DNA of 42,941 nt. Source: an uncultured Bacilli bacterium (GTDB lineage Bacteria; Bacillota_I; Bacilli_A; RFN20; CAG-449). Under the pieces are notes generated by a model. That model did not search any database and had not been told where the DNA came from. It saw only the letters and a program-made list of their open reading frames with translations. The translations under genes and the position numbers were made by a program. The stretch is from assembly GCA_944332075.1 (NCBI GenBank), contig CALVJL010000011.1:1-42941 (forward strand). Reading direction: 5' to 3'. Below, in pieces: positions 5,351 through 42,941 of the stretch (its first letter is position 1; each line of letters opens with the position of its first letter).

Positions 5351-7336
5351 ATGAAATTATTAACCACTTCTAGCAATTTGTTAACTGTTTTAAATCATTT
5401 AGGTATTAATTCTAGTGAAGATTTATTAAAATATCTCCCATATCGTTATGAAGACAAAACTTATTCTGATGAACTTGACTTACTCGATAAAGAAAAGGTG
5501 ACAATTCTGGGTAAGTTAGTGTCTAATCCAGTTTTAGTAAATAAGGGAAAATTTTCATTAATTCAATTCTTTTTTATTTCTGATCATAATGAGTTTTATC
5601 GAGTGAAAATCTTTAATCAACCATATTTGATGAAGACGCTCACGTTTGGTGAACTTTATTCTGTCAGCGGGACATATTCTCTTAAAGGTAAAGAAATCAA
5701 TTTAACGTCTTTAAAAAAAGGTGTGATTTCTTCAGAAGAAGCTTTAAGACCTCTTTATCATTTATTAGAAGGTGTTTCGCAAAGCGTATATCGTAATTTA
5801 GTTAAAAGAACATTAGAAAAATGCGAAGGCTTAATTAATGATCCAATGATTGATGAATTTAAAAAGAAATACCATCTTTTAGATTATTATCAAGCTTTAA
5901 AGATGATTCATTTTCCAAAAAATAAAGAAGAAATCCGTTTAGCTCTTAGAACATTGAAATACCATGAGTGCTTAGCCTTTTCTTTGAAAAATCAAATTTG
6001 TCGCGGAGAGAATAAACGTTTACCTTTGCAAAAGAAAACTAAAATAGAGCTCAAAAAAGTTAATGATTTTATTTTATCGTTGCCTTTTAAATTAACTAAA
6101 GATCAAATTTCGGCAATTAGAGAAATTGTCTTAGATATGAATAAAGATGAACTAATGTACCGTTTATTGCAAGGCGATGTCGGAAGCGGTAAGACTTTAG
6201 TGGCGATGGCTAGTTTATACGCGAATTATTTACGTCATAACCAAGGTGCATTTATGGTGCCAACTGATTCATTAGCTAGGCAACAATTTGAAGATATCAA
6301 AAAGTATTTTTCACCTTTTAATATTAGGGTTGATTTATTAATCGGCTCATTATCATTAAAAGAGAAAAAAGAAGTTAAGGAAAAATTAATAAATCATCAA
6401 ACAGATATCGTTGTCGGAACCCATGCTTTGTTTTCGGAAGATGTCTACTATGATAATTTAGGTTTAGCTATTATTGATGAACAGCATAAATTCGGGGTCA
6501 ATCAAAGAAATTTATTAGTTTCTAAAGGCGATAACTGCGATTTGCTTTTAATGTCTGCGACACCGATTCCTCGGACTTTAGCTATCTCAATCTATGGTGA
6601 TTTAGATGTTTCTACTTTAGCTTCCTTCCCGCATGAGGAAAGAAAGGTCATCACAGAAATAGTTAGACCGGATTCACCAGAAATTAATTTATTAATTCAT
6701 GAAATGCTTGAAACTAACCGACAGATTTTTATCGTTGCACCTAAAATAAGCGGCGATGATGAAGAAAAATCGGTTCTAGCCATTTATGAAAAATATTCTT
6801 TGTTATTTCCTAATCAAGTTTTATTACTCCACGGCAAAATGGATAGCGAAGAAAAAGAGAGAATTTTAAAAGATTTTATCGATAAGAAAAAATTAATTCT
6901 AGTCGCGACGACAGTCATTGAATTAGGAATTAACGTTTTAAGTGCCGGATTAATGATTATCTATAATGCTTCTTCGTTTGGTTTAGCTTCGCTTCATCAG
7001 CTCCGCGGCAGAGTCTCACGCGATGGACAAAGCGGATATTGCTTATTAGTTTCGGAAAATGAAGATCCGCGTTTAAGCGTTTTAGTCGATTCTAATGATG
7101 GTTTTCATATTGCTGAAGAAGATATGAAAATGCGTGGACCAGGCGATATGATTGGAGTTAGACAAAGTGGATTTCCTTCTTTTGCAACGTTAAATATTGT
7201 TGATGATTTTCGCATGTTTGAATGCGCGAGAGACGATGCGAAAAAGATTGTGGATAACTTAGCTAATCCATCTTATCAAAAATATTACGCTTTAATTAAG
7301 CAAGAACTAGCCACTTCTGCCGTTAATGACGGCTAA
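5351..7336 (+). CDS. recG: ATP-dependent DNA helicase RecG
   Basis: A 661-residue RecG, near the family's usual 670-690. RecG remodels stalled replication forks and Holliday junctions. The N-terminal half is the wedge/OB region; superfamily 2 helicase motifs follow: Walker A GDVGSGKT (about 274-281), DEQH box (IIDEQHKFGV), motif III MSATPIPRTLA, and motif VI LHQLRGRVSRDGQSG, then the RecG-typical tail (MKMRGPGDMIGVRQSG). I start it at ATG 5351 because the promoter -10 ends at 5344; a TTG at 5330 is upstream of the predicted RNA start. It is followed by plsX, as in Bacillus. Confidence 0.93.
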   Translation: MKLLTTSSNLLTVLNHLGINSSEDLLKYLPYRYEDKTYSDELDLLDKEKVTILGKLVSNPVLVNKGKFSLIQFFFISDHNEFYRVKIFNQPYLMKTLTFGELYSVSGTYSLKGKEINLTSLKKGVISSEEALRPLYHLLEGVSQSVYRNLVKRTLEKCEGLINDPMIDEFKKKYHLLDYYQALKMIHFPKNKEEIRLALRTLKYHECLAFSLKNQICRGENKRLPLQKKTKIELKKVNDFILSLPFKLTKDQISAIREIVLDMNKDELMYRLLQGDVGSGKTLVAMASLYANYLRHNQGAFMVPTDSLARQQFEDIKKYFSPFNIRVDLLIGSLSLKEKKEVKEKLINHQTDIVVGTHALFSEDVYYDNLGLAIIDEQHKFGVNQRNLLVSKGDNCDLLLMSATPIPRTLAISIYGDLDVSTLASFPHEERKVITEIVRPDSPEINLLIHEMLETNRQIFIVAPKISGDDEEKSVLAIYEKYSLLFPNQVLLLHGKMDSEEKERILKDFIDKKKLILVATTVIELGINVLSAGLMIIYNASSFGLASLHQLRGRVSRDGQSGYCLLVSENEDPRLSVLVDSNDGFHIAEEDMKMRGPGDMIGVRQSGFPSFATLNIVDDFRMFECARDDAKKIVDNLANPSYQKYYALIKQELATSAVNDG

Positions 7337-7348
7337 ATATATTTATTA
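7319..7348 (+). terminator. Possible weak terminator at the recG stop codon
   Basis: GCCGT (7319-7323) and ACGGC (7329-7333) form a short hairpin directly before the recG stop, followed by an A/T-rich run without a clean T tract. Termination here, if any, would be partial. Confidence 0.3.
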
Positions 7349-7364
7349 TTAACTTTACTTTTAC

Positions 7365-7370
7365 TATAAT
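7365..7370 (+). promoter_or_regulatory. Candidate -10 for plsX operon
   Basis: TATAAT stands 22 bp before the plsX start, with the AAGGAG ribosome binding site between them. No good -35 hexamer is found at the right distance, so this is a tentative promoter. Confidence 0.4.
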
Positions 7371-7392
7371 TTATTAAAAAGGAGCGATAAAA

Positions 7393-8379
7393 ATGGTTAA
7401 ACTCGCAGTTGATTTAATGGGTAGTGACAATGGTCCAGAAGCTATTGCCGCTGGTATCAAAGAATTTTTAAAAAAACATTCAGATGTCGAAATATATGCT
7501 TGTGGATCTGAAGAGGCTTTATCATTGCTTAAAGATGAAAAACATATTCATTCTTTTGTGACAAGTCAAGTTGTTCCTATGGAGTCGGGAGCGATGCAGG
7601 CGATGCGGATGAAAGATTCTTCAATGATGAAAGTTTTTAATTTGTTTGCTGAAGAAAATGTTCAAGCCGGAGTTTCCGCCGGGTCTACTGGAGGCTTCCT
7701 CTCATTAGCTACTTTAAAGTTAAAATTAATTCCAGGCGTGGAAAGAGCAGCTTTAACCTCTCCATTCCCTACTTTAAATGGTTCACCATTAGTCGTTCTT
7801 GATATTGGAGCTTCTAATGAGAATAATCCTCAGCAATTATATCAATTTGCTAAGATGGGTAGAATTTATTCTCAGACTGTTTTTAATGTAAAGGAACCGA
7901 ATACTTATCTTCTTTCTAATGGAGTAGAAGAAGGTAAGGGATCACCGGTTGGTAAAGAAGCCTATAAATTATTAAAAGAACATAACTTCCCAGGTTTTAA
8001 GGGGAATATTGAAGCGAGAGAAGCTTTAAAAGGTGATGCTGATGTTTTAGTCAGTGAAGGATATCCAGGCAATATTTTCTTAAAGTCTAGCGAAGGCGTA
8101 GCTAAAATGATGTCAGCTCTTATTAAAAAAGCCTTCCATAAGAATATCTTTACAATGATTGGCTATTTATTCTCCGCGGGCGGATTTAAAGATATGAAAA
8201 AATCAATGGACTATAAATCTTATGGCGGAGCGATTTTACTCGGTGTCAATGGCGTCGTTGTTAAAGCGCATGGTAATTCAGACGCTTATTCTTTCTCTTG
8301 TGCTTTAGAAGTTGCTTATAAGATGACTTCTCATGATATCGTCAATAAAATTAAAGAAGGATTCCAGAATGAACTTTAG
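7393..8379 (+). CDS. plsX: Phosphate acyltransferase PlsX
   Basis: A 328-residue PlsX, full length. It converts acyl-ACP and phosphate to acyl-phosphate, the donor for PlsY in glycerolipid synthesis, and acts as a peripheral membrane enzyme. Recognisable segments are VDLMGSDNGPEAIAAG at the N-terminus, AGVSAGSTGGFLSLA in the middle, VVLDIGASNENNPQQL, and the C-terminal SYGGAILLGVNGVVVKAHGNSDA block. The ribosome binding site AAGGAG precedes ATG 7393. Its neighbours in Bacillus (fapR, fabD, fabG, acpP) are missing here; with FakA nearby, the cell may rely on external fatty acids, which is an inference from the window alone. The 3' end overlaps rnc by 11 nt. Confidence 0.93.
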   Translation: MVKLAVDLMGSDNGPEAIAAGIKEFLKKHSDVEIYACGSEEALSLLKDEKHIHSFVTSQVVPMESGAMQAMRMKDSSMMKVFNLFAEENVQAGVSAGSTGGFLSLATLKLKLIPGVERAALTSPFPTLNGSPLVVLDIGASNENNPQQLYQFAKMGRIYSQTVFNVKEPNTYLLSNGVEEGKGSPVGKEAYKLLKEHNFPGFKGNIEAREALKGDADVLVSEGYPGNIFLKSSEGVAKMMSALIKKAFHKNIFTMIGYLFSAGGFKDMKKSMDYKSYGGAILLGVNGVVVKAHGNSDAYSFSCALEVAYKMTSHDIVNKIKEGFQNEL

Positions 8380-40092: not shown

Positions 40093-40168
40093 GGGGCTGT
40101 AGCTCATCTGGGAGAGCGCATCCATGGCATGGATGAGGTGGCGAGTTCGAGCCTCGTCAGCTCCACCA
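40093..40168 (+). tRNA. tRNA-Ala, anticodon GGC
   Basis: A 76-nt cloverleaf: acceptor GGGGCTG with CAGCTCC (one G-U pair), D arm GCTC/GAGC, anticodon arm CATCC/GGATG with loop ATGGCAT (anticodon GGC at positions 34-36, reading GCC and GCU), T arm GCGAG/CTCGT with loop TTCGAGC. The CCA end is encoded. It stands alone with its own promoter and terminator. Confidence 0.95.
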
Positions 40169-40180
40169 TTAAGAGAATTT

Positions 40181-40206
40181 AGGTGATGGAAACATCACCT
40201 TTTTTG
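40181..40206 (+). terminator. Intrinsic terminator after tRNA-Ala
   Basis: AGGTGATG (40181-40188), GAAA tetraloop, CATCACCT (40193-40200), then T residues to 40205. Confidence 0.9.
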
Positions 40207-40207
40207 T

Positions 40208-40237
40208 TTGAAAAAGAATGATAAAAGATTTTAAAAT
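40208..40237 (+). promoter_or_regulatory. Promoter for the redox gene cluster
   Basis: TTGAAA (40208-40213), an 18-bp spacer and TAAAAT (40232-40237). The start should fall near 40244, about 20 nt before the first ATG of the cluster. Confidence 0.6.
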
Positions 40238-40263
40238 AAATATAGGCATTGGAGGTATTTATA

Positions 40264-40887
40264 ATGAAGGTATTACTTGTTAATGGCTCAACTAAAATAC
40301 ATGGTTGCACTTATAGAGCTTTATCGGAAATGGCAAAAATTTTTAATGAACAAGGAATTGAAACAGAAATTATTGAAATGGGAGCTAGCGCGATCTACGA
40401 CTGCATGGGATGCGGGTACTGCCAAAAGAATCATAAATGCGTTTTTAATGATGATTTAGTTAATGTTATCATTGAAAAAGCTAAGACCTGTGATGGCTTT
40501 GTATTTGGTTCACCAGTATTTTATGCTCATCCAAGCGGACAAATTTTATCTTTACTCGATAGATTATTTTATTCAGCAAGTTCGGTCTTTTATCAGAAAG
40601 TTGGCTGTGCGATTGTTTCAGCTAGACGCGCGGGAACAACTGCTTCTCTTGATGTATTAAACAAATATTTACTTGATGCAGCGATGATAGTTCCAGGCTC
40701 TTCTTACTGGAATATGGTGCATGGAAGGAAAAGCGAAGAAGTTGAAGAGGATAAAGAGGGTTTACAGACGATGAGGAACCTCGCTTTGAATATGGCTTGG
40801 ATTATGAAATGTATTGATTTTTGTAAGCAAAACGGCATTTTACCTCCAAAACTTGAAGAAAAAGTTTGGACAAATTTTGTTAGATAA
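40264..40887 (+). CDS. Iron-sulfur flavoprotein (Isf-like NADPH-dependent FMN reductase family)
   Basis: A 207-residue flavodoxin-fold protein. It opens with VLLVNGSTKIHGCTYRAL, the FMN phosphate loop, and has the second flavin loop GSPVFYAHPSGQI. The compact Cys motif C47-x2-C50-x2-C53-x5-C59 (CMGCGYCQKNHKC) matches the 4Fe-4S motif described in the archaeal iron-sulfur flavoprotein Isf, with the same spacing. It probably shuttles electrons from ferredoxin or NAD(P)H to an unknown acceptor in the cytosol. ATG 40264 is chosen with GGAGGT upstream; the 40249 ATG is within the leader. Probably co-transcribed with the next two genes. Confidence 0.85.
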   Translation: MKVLLVNGSTKIHGCTYRALSEMAKIFNEQGIETEIIEMGASAIYDCMGCGYCQKNHKCVFNDDLVNVIIEKAKTCDGFVFGSPVFYAHPSGQILSLLDRLFYSASSVFYQKVGCAIVSARRAGTTASLDVLNKYLLDAAMIVPGSSYWNMVHGRKSEEVEEDKEGLQTMRNLALNMAWIMKCIDFCKQNGILPPKLEEKVWTNFVR

Positions 40888-40902
40888 AAAGGAAATCACC
40901 TA

Positions 40903-41370
40903 ATGAAAGATATAATTATTTACGTATCCAAACATCATCAAAATACTAAAAAGGTAGTCGATTTTTTAACTGAAAAATTCCATATTGAAGCAGTTAACGC
41001 TGAGAATTTTTCCAAAGATATCTCTCAATACGATAATATTATTTTTATGACAGGTATTTATGCATTTCATCTTGATGAAAGCATTAATAAATTAATTGAA
41101 AACTTACCATTAGAAAATAAGCGTTGCTTTTTAATATATACTTCGGCGATGGATGTCGATAGTTTTGGCAAAGCATTTATCAAACAAATTCAAAAGAAAA
41201 ATGTTAGTAAATGCGCATTTGCACATGTTCCAGGATTTTGCACATTTGGGCCATTTAAATTATTTAAAGGTGTGAGAAAAAATCATCCTGACGCTAATGA
41301 TTTAGAAAAAGTTGCAGACTTCTATCAAGAGGAGATAGCAGATGAGAAAAGTAAAGATAACCGTGGTTAA
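40903..41370 (+). CDS. Flavodoxin-like protein
   Basis: A 155-residue protein with a flavodoxin-type fold. The N-terminal DIIIYVSKHHQNTKKVVDFL matches the FMN phosphate-binding loop, in which S-K-H-H-Q-N-T replaces the more common S-x-T-G-N-T. YDNIIFMTGIYAFHLDESINKLIENL gives the second loop, and CFLIYTSAMD the third. The tail PGFCTFGPFKLFKGVRKNHPDANDLEKVADF resembles the flavodoxin domain group that includes protoporphyrinogen oxidase HemG-like and Clostridial flavodoxins. The redox partner is unknown. Ribosome binding site AAAAGGAAA. It overlaps the next gene by 29 nt. Confidence 0.75.
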   Translation: MKDIIIYVSKHHQNTKKVVDFLTEKFHIEAVNAENFSKDISQYDNIIFMTGIYAFHLDESINKLIENLPLENKRCFLIYTSAMDVDSFGKAFIKQIQKKNVSKCAFAHVPGFCTFGPFKLFKGVRKNHPDANDLEKVADFYQEEIADEKSKDNRG

Positions 41371-41650
41371 AAAAGTTTTTCATGCTGATTTAAGCGATAA
41401 ATATGAAAATTTAATTAGTAATGCCTGTTCAATTAATGAAGGTGATATTTTCTATATGAGCGATTTAAATAAACCTGATGGACTTTGTGAAAGTGCATAT
41501 GTAACTTTATATCCTTTTGTGATGACCCTTCTTCATGGCGGAGAAGATATTTACAAAGGTTGGATGAAGAATAAAAAGTCAGCAATGGTATCGTGCAATG
41601 ACGGATTTCGGCCTGTTTCATTTTATTTAGAAGTCATTGATGAAGATTAA
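41342..41650 (+). CDS. TIGR04076 family protein
   Basis: A 102-residue small protein that I recognise as TIGR04076-like: KITVVKKVFHADLSDKY at the start, a Cys in NACSINEGD, PDGLCESAYVTLYPFVMTLLHGG, and the closing MVSCNDGFRPVSFYLE with the conserved D-G-x-R-P-V. The three Cys are placed as in the family. The function is not known. AGAGGAGA at about 41329-41336 gives a strong ribosome binding site for ATG 41342 inside the previous gene. Its association with flavoproteins hints at a redox role. Confidence 0.75.
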   Translation: MRKVKITVVKKVFHADLSDKYENLISNACSINEGDIFYMSDLNKPDGLCESAYVTLYPFVMTLLHGGEDIYKGWMKNKKSAMVSCNDGFRPVSFYLEVIDED

Positions 41651-41688: not shown

Positions 41689-42390
41689 ATGAGTAAAGTT
41701 TGGCGGATTTTTAAAGTTTATGAATGGATATTCCTTCTTCTTTGCGTTGCAGCATTCATTTCGCTTGGAGTTATTTACCATTCACCAATTTTAGAACTTA
41801 TATCTGTCTTTTTAGGCTTAGCGGCAGTTTCTTTGAATTTAAAAAGAAAAAAATATGCCTTCTTTGTCTATAGCTTTTATGTATTATTTTACGGCATAGT
41901 ATCTTTTATTGAAAAACAATACGGCGAAGCTATTTTAAATATTTTTTATAATCTTCCAGTTTATTTGTTTACTCTATATAAGTATTACATACGCGATCGC
42001 AAGCAAGGAGAAGAAAAAAGCGATTTTAGCATAAAGCAGTTAAGTAAGAAAAATTTAATAATTAGTATTTGCTTAATCCCAGTTATAACAATTGCCTATG
42101 GCTTTATTTTAAAATCGATAAATTCTGCTTTACCATTTTTAAATGCTTTATCAACATCATTTGCCTTAGTTGCTTGCTATTTAGCTAGTAAAGCTAGTTT
42201 ATCGCAATGGGTATTTTGGATTTTGTACTCGGCTTGCCTAGTTGCAATTTGGACAATTAATTATTTTTCACAAGACGGAACTGGATTGCTATATTTAGTC
42301 TTAAATGCGGTGTATATTATTATCAATCTTTATGGTTTGATAACCTGGATTATTACAAAGGAGAGAAAAAATGAGAATAGTCATAATTAG
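41689..42390 (+). CDS. pnuC: PnuC family vitamin/nucleoside transporter
   Basis: A 233-residue membrane protein of the PnuC family, which imports nicotinamide riboside (PnuC proper), thiamine (PnuT) or riboflavin (PnuX) by facilitated diffusion. About seven hydrophobic helices are visible, with the family's QWVFWILYSACLVAIW region and a C-terminal NAVYIIINLYGLITWI helix. Length is within the 200-240 of the family. The ligand cannot be assigned from sequence alone, and no riboswitch is visible in the short 38-nt gap. No ribosome binding site precedes ATG; its start overlaps a likely leaderless promoter. The end overlaps the next gene by 20 nt. Confidence 0.8.
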   Translation: MSKVWRIFKVYEWIFLLLCVAAFISLGVIYHSPILELISVFLGLAAVSLNLKRKKYAFFVYSFYVLFYGIVSFIEKQYGEAILNIFYNLPVYLFTLYKYYIRDRKQGEEKSDFSIKQLSKKNLIISICLIPVITIAYGFILKSINSALPFLNALSTSFALVACYLASKASLSQWVFWILYSACLVAIWTINYFSQDGTGLLYLVLNAVYIIINLYGLITWIITKERKNENSHN

Positions 42391-42941
42391 ACATGGTGAA
42401 CCGGATAATCCAAATCAGACGTTGACAAAAAAAGGATTTGAAGAAGTCGCAGCTTTACATGATTTTTATAAAGATTATCCATTTGATGAAATTTATGTTT
42501 CTCCGTTAGCAAGGGCTCAATTAACTGCTAAGGGGTTATTGCCTAATCGCGTAAAAGAATTTCATACGATGGATTGGTTAAAAGAATTTACGCATTTCGT
42601 TAAAGTACCATATTCCGATGAACGCGTTCAAAATTGGGATTTTTTACCAAAATATTTCACTGATCAAAAAGATTTCTATTCTTATGATAAATATCTTGAT
42701 CATGAGGTAATGAAATCCGGGGATATAAAAGATGATTATAAACATGTCGTTAGTGAATTTGATAAAATTCTTGCTGCGCATGGTTATGTTAGAGAAGGCA
42801 AATATTATAGGGTTATAAAAGAAAACCGAGATACATTATTATTTGTTTGCCACTTTGGAATGATGAGTGTTTTGATGGCTCATTTAATGAGTTTACCATA
42901 TGTGGTTTTAACTCAATATTTCTGCTGTCCACCTACTGGAG
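42371..42941 (+). CDS. Histidine phosphatase family protein (partial at window end)
   Basis: The 5' 190 codons of a histidine phosphatase (phosphoglycerate mutase-like) gene; the reading frame is open to the last base, so the 3' end is outside. The catalytic loop IRHGEPDNPN holds the phospho-accepting His, and the second core motif is PLARAQLTAKG, with a later His in VCHFGMMSVLMAHL. AAAGGAGAG precedes ATG 42371, within the end of pnuC, so translation is coupled. The substrate is unknown; family members dephosphorylate sugars, nucleotides or other metabolites, and a nucleotide link with pnuC is possible. Confidence 0.8.
   Translation, partial: MRIVIIRHGEPDNPNQTLTKKGFEEVAALHDFYKDYPFDEIYVSPLARAQLTAKGLLPNRVKEFHTMDWLKEFTHFVKVPYSDERVQNWDFLPKYFTDQKDFYSYDKYLDHEVMKSGDIKDDYKHVVSEFDKILAAHGYVREGKYYRVIKENRDTLLFVCHFGMMSVLMAHLMSLPYVVLTQYFCCPPTG

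Follow-up and report, generated by a model that had tools for sequence, protein, structure and literature searches.

A probable lineage-specific grouping of an Isf-type flavoprotein, a short flavodoxin and a TIGR04076 protein at a variable tRNA-Ala site in an uncultured Bacilli bacterium

We examined three adjacent genes, encoding an Isf-type iron-sulfur flavoprotein (ORF1), a short flavodoxin (ORF2) and a TIGR04076 protein (ORF3), in a window of 42,941 nucleotides that makes up an entire contig (C11) of the 1.47 Mb genome of an uncultured Bacilli bacterium. The reading that we favor, with a probability of about 0.55, is that the trio belongs to an operon specific to its lineage, located next to a tRNA gene at a site of variable content and consisting of two separable pieces, Isf plus flavodoxin and TIGR04076-pnuC-phosphatase, with TIGR04076 independent of the first piece. 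Rather than a conserved electron-transfer machine, the three genes appear to be a local assemblage of recent date within a single bacterial lineage.

The five genes from ORF1 to the histidine phosphatase probably form a single operon and transcript (Table 1). ORF1 and ORF2 are separated by a gap of 15 nt, ORF2 and ORF3 overlap by 29 nt (41342-41370), ORF3 and pnuC are separated by 38 nt, and pnuC and the phosphatase gene overlap by 20 nt. Spacing this tight (29 nt shared by ORF2 and ORF3, gaps of 15 and 38 nt) speaks for joint expression, which is frequently a sign of shared purpose. The only terminator-like match among the genes from ORF1 to the phosphatase lies within ORF2; the region as a whole contains three terminator-like hairpins, compared with a mean of 1.4 in shuffled sequence. 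The candidate promoter is proposed from its position, promoter-like matches being no commoner in the region than in shuffles (9 versus 15.2). A sequence-only reading had described a three-gene cluster with coordinates and an ORF2/ORF3 overlap that proved exact; the close coupling stands, but the probable operon runs past 41650 into pnuC and the phosphatase gene.

Table 1. Features of the polC to phosphatase region of the window; genes are longest-ORF picks and not annotation.
Feature	Position	Strand	Remarks
polC	up to 40024		identified by visual inspection of the sequence
tRNA-Ala (GGC)	40093..40168	+	after polC, in the third genome of the genus (G002) too
terminator-like hairpin with T run	40181..40200	+	closes the tRNA unit
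promoter-like TTGAAA-18-TAAAAT	40208..40237	+	5' of ORF1
ORF1, Isf-type FMN_red protein, 207 aa	40264..40887	+	PF03358; Cys motif
ORF2, short flavodoxin (Flavodoxin_5), 155 aa	40903..41370	+	PF12724
ORF3, TIGR04076 protein, 102 aa	41342..41650	+	TIGR04076 model; near-invariant C29, C49, C85
pnuC, nicotinamide riboside/NMN transporter	41689..42390	+	next after TIGR04076 in each of the three examined genomes of the genus
histidine phosphatase	42371..42941	+	incomplete; contig end reached inside the gene

Among the genomes examined, the trio was found only in the window's genome (G000) and in a sister genome (G001). The sister carries all five genes and is ~96% identical in DNA to the window over the stretch, and is therefore hardly independent of it; its flavodoxin was identified through 94% identity to ORF2. 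The third genome of the genus (G002) contains TIGR04076, pnuC and phosphatase genes overlapping by 1 nt and 20 nt, with the flavoprotein genes absent upstream and other genes in that position. The Isf gene of G002, 51% identical, lies on a separate contig, where it adjoins a GntR-type gene. The polC-tRNA-Ala site of G002 carries genes for an HTH protein and an AAA ATPase instead of the trio, and the TIGR04076 unit is on another contig. Because G002 has different genes there, the content beside tRNA-Ala is variable, suggesting that the tRNA-side location is a site for swapped genes. The best PADLOC matches of the HTH/ATPase pair (L195 312-2604, the site equivalent to window positions 40170-40264) were AriA and Old.

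To place this arrangement in a wider context, the neighborhoods of TIGR04076 genes were surveyed at 120 loci (from an initial 129, 7 that yielded no usable TIGR04076 ORF and 2 duplicates, L071 and L048, were removed; near-identical pairs were kept). Loci L050-L129 were the 80 top-ranking matches out of at least 589, and the survey is therefore biased toward proteins closely related to that of the window. With Pfam tallies covering the 25 commonest of 103, 47 and 166 families, so that single flavoproteins elsewhere may be unseen, a flavodoxin occupied the -1 position on the same strand in 3 of 63 cases (the window, its sister and L051, of Methanobacteriaceae), and FMN_red was found two or three genes away in 3 of 95 (the window, its sister and L124, the last assigned from clustering). 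General FAD/NAD oxidoreductase models occurred at the latter positions in up to 5 of 95. Neither flavodoxin nor FMN_red was among the 25 commonest of the 47 families of the 49 downstream (+1) neighbors scanned. When recurrent neighbors were sought, no family exceeded 13 loci, and the members of the largest clusters (13 and 10 loci) kept neither to one position nor to one strand; elsewhere, the neighbors of TIGR04076 are mostly unrelated. Given this scarcity of flavoproteins, TIGR04076 genes are for the most part not found beside them, an outcome that the sequence-only reading had itself named as counting against its proposal, with L051 and L124 as two further loci on the other side. A standing partnership of TIGR04076 with Isf and flavodoxin was thus not borne out, the trio being confined to the window's genome and its 96%-identical sister. 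Directly upstream of TIGR04076 in a genome from another genus of the window's family (G008; L006:246-1196), a 316-aa ORF resembles DUF1848 by eye; in the neighbors scanned, DUF1848 was seen a single time at -1 and a single time at +1.

Some observations do link Isf and TIGR04076. In L124, an unrelated Bacteroidales contig, genes for a C_GCAxxG_C_C redox protein (a weak match), Isf, SpoU and TIGR04076 lie in a row (6174-8309), the Isf gene being 47% identical and two genes before TIGR04076; this was the sole outside Isf case in the survey. Isf and TIGR04076 are both present in 9 of 58 relatives and adjacent in 2. Across these 58 relatives, a strong Isf relative was found in 9 of 13 TIGR04076 genomes versus 12 of 45 others (Fisher p 0.008, in a test that ignores kinship, includes G000-G002 and uses an E-value line set after viewing the table). 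This co-presence and L124, together with the ORF2/ORF3 overlap and the short gaps, are points against the view that the pieces are separable.

The first piece consists of ORF1 and ORF2. The ATG of ORF1 is served by a GGAGGT-like ribosome site, with an in-frame TTG 15 nt upstream. A profile scan assigned the protein to FMN_red at E 2e-25, and the cysteines, counted from the ATG, follow exactly the pattern that the sequence-only reading had given, Cys47-x2-Cys50-x2-Cys53-x5-Cys59. Matches to ORF1 at E 1e-10 were present in 27 genomes among the 58 relatives. None of the four cysteines varies across the 17 aligned proteins, namely the window's and 16 relatives chosen from 27 candidates (one near-identical, one truncated, one near-duplicate and eight distant paralogues were left out), and RRxG and YWN stretches are also common to the relatives. 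At homologous loci, C-x2-C-x2-C-x4-7-C is present in 29 of 30, L150 being without it. The available part of one publication gives the Isf motif as CX2CX2CX5-7C (PMC3164229), and the x5 spacing of ORF1 is inside this range; ORF1 thus shares with the Isf family both the FMN_red domain and the compact cysteine motif. The best solved sequences for the ORF1 profile were Cd1 7d38 (E 1.3e-9), azoreductases, SsuE and WrbA, and no chain named Isf was among the 49 solved sequences listed at E 10; the proposed link to the archaeal Isf prototype draws on the motif and the domain. The probable cofactors are FMN and a [4Fe-4S] cluster on C47, C50, C53 and C59.

ORF2 matched Flavodoxin_5 at E 1.5e-8 with 35.5 bits, above the gathering score of 27, in agreement with its earlier description as flavodoxin-like, and it has the same fold as the short-chain flavodoxins. 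A single-sequence model of modest confidence (pLDDT 63.6) retrieved flavodoxins first in Foldseek (best 6ohl, E 4.7e-5). Close relatives are rare, occurring in 3 of 58 genomes, one of them weak. The N-terminal domain of EFR1 flavodoxin-ferredoxins is like that of ORF2, but membership in EFR1 was rejected, since ORF2 scores 28.4 against a cut-off of 75 and lacks the ferredoxin half. A known defense role for ORF2 or ORF3 was likewise rejected, as PADLOC gave no match for either protein. Isf and flavodoxin as a small electron relay are plausible: the Isf-type protein, with FMN and a putative [4Fe-4S] cluster, would be paired with the short flavodoxin, its likely job would be one-/two-electron exchange, and electrons might pass from ferredoxin or NAD(P)H to the Isf protein and on to the flavodoxin or a small acceptor.

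The proposal that all three proteins form one electron-transfer system acting on oxygen or peroxide appears improbable, and a three-part system is unlikely even where the two-part relay is plausible. The close coupling and the redox-type neighbors favor it, and TIGR04076 genes elsewhere precede AhpC/TSA (3 of 49) or Hsp33 (2 of 49) genes, counts that include the near-identical pairs L096/L102 and L054/L068. In Entamoeba, Isf-type proteins rise under oxidative stress, according to the available part of PMC3164229, but overexpression conferred no peroxide resistance, according to that of PMC4419850, and the trio is not conserved.

The second piece, TIGR04076-pnuC-phosphatase, is a unit in 3 of 3 examined genomes of the genus. 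In a search of 26 genomes, pnuC matches within the window's family (f1) are limited to these three genomes. One could suppose that TIGR04076, PnuC and the phosphatase act together in nicotinamide riboside/NMN salvage, with Isf and flavodoxin drawing on the NAD(P) pool as additional consumers, and the constancy of the unit and its 1-nt overlap in G002 would fit. We find this very doubtful: pnuC adjoins TIGR04076 in only these three of the 49 downstream neighbors scanned, and in another genome, G025, TIGR04076 and pnuC are on different contigs. TIGR04076 is probably a passenger travelling with pnuC, and probably independent of Isf and flavodoxin. Under the separable-pieces reading, it would be a compact three-thiol domain acting alone rather than as a subunit dedicated to the Isf protein.

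The assignment of ORF3 to TIGR04076 (NCBIfam) was confirmed with a score of 89.3 bits (cut-off 33), with no match to a Pfam family. Among 114 aligned domains, C29 is conserved in 112 of 112, C49 in 114 of 114 and C85 in 113 of 113 ungapped rows, the C85 count not being independent for L050-L129, which were collected with a pattern containing this residue; all three are invariant also in a 22-member alignment collected by the family model rather than by motif. No difference between ORF3 and the family was seen, the three conserved cysteines being common to both. The distribution is patchy: 27 of 147 relatives carry TIGR04076, as do 25 of 295 genomes of the phylum, and named records come from Firmicutes, Bacteroidota, spirochaetes and Methanobacteriaceae, with the culturable Holdemania filiformis and Sedimentibacter saalensis among the carriers. 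Several copies contain stops or are split (L047/L049 in G002:C7, L025/L048 in G032, L004, L034 and L041), and the family therefore seems to be often lost and gained. An apparent fusion at L015 (a 1228-aa frame) was rejected since the frame crosses a masked stretch of N, and a role as phage or plasmid cargo was rejected with no phage match and three plasmid records. Foldseek against viral models returned nothing (best E 0.2), and a profile search of solved sequences nothing credible. One published table, in the part of that source available, suspects a redox or iron-cluster role; no further paper carrying the name TIGR04076 was found among 5.39 million open papers.

A structural lead came from the AF2 model of TIGR04076, which is confident (pLDDT 93.2, pTM 0.85). 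The top VIA-align hits were 3on5_A (Z 7.8, rmsd 2.2, 77 aligned) and 2we8_A (Z 7.7, rmsd 2.4, 76 aligned), followed by a third XdhC-family chain, 2we7_A (Z 7.4), and then by 1bdy_A (Z 4.6). The 3on5 and 2we8 sequences are XdhC by a profile of 15 XdhC proteins (E 4.2e-57 and 4.2e-90). XdhC is a molybdenum-cofactor sulfuration chaperone with one conserved cysteine inside a CGG/CNG motif. 3on5 carries SGGCLE and SGCNGTISVLLEP, for which the ORF3 counterparts are LCESA and SCNDGFRPVSFYLE. In the ORF3 model, C49 lies right before a long helix (50-64), and C85 ends a strand (80-86) ahead of the final strand (91-99). By our reading of the sequences and the aligned range, rather than of residue pairs, the cysteines appear to be placed alike, with C85-N-D-G like the CGG/CNG motif, C49 like SGGC-L-E, and C29 additional in TIGR04076. 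XdhC proteins have a single cysteine in common that is highly conserved (Cys82 in R. capsulatus) and that may, according to the available part of the review PMC2997495, be a persulfide carrier or a ligand.

These results, together with the lack of variation in the three cysteines, suggest as a tentative minority possibility that TIGR04076 is related to the N-terminal domain of XdhC and stands alone, holding persulfide sulfur or metal on its three cysteines and working with no molybdenum cofactor. The N-terminal domain of XdhC/CoxI (PF02625) is the best match to the predicted fold, but TIGR04076 lacks the Rossmann half, and Z scores below 8 may reflect a common arrangement. Foldseek with the same model against solved structures found nothing (best E 2.6), hhalign against XdhC gave E 0.46 to 0.87, with 0.79 and 0.61 in two of the comparisons, and in our own profile alignment the score of the real columns was equalled or exceeded by 122 and 179 of 200 column shuffles, a cruder scoring failing as well; PF02625 had no match in 22 TIGR04076 members at E 10. 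Homology of TIGR04076 and XdhC is not supported by these sequence-profile tests. MoaA (PF06463) was not found in G000-G002 nor in 57 of 58 relatives, in a search whose control was positive in 11 of 14 genomes, and a shared XdhC-type job would therefore not involve the molybdenum cofactor, as far as MoaA tells.

For the family, which is widespread in anaerobes, these findings take away an operon-based case for TIGR04076 function that was tempting but weak, and offer instead a structural lead that can be tested on the specific residues C29, C49 and C85. In its furthest form, unlikely as matters stand, this lead would make TIGR04076, which occurs in anaerobes from gut and rumen belonging to several phyla, a free-standing, molybdenum-free, XdhC-type three-thiol carrier of persulfide or metal that strict anaerobes may use for general cofactor repair or Fe-S repair.
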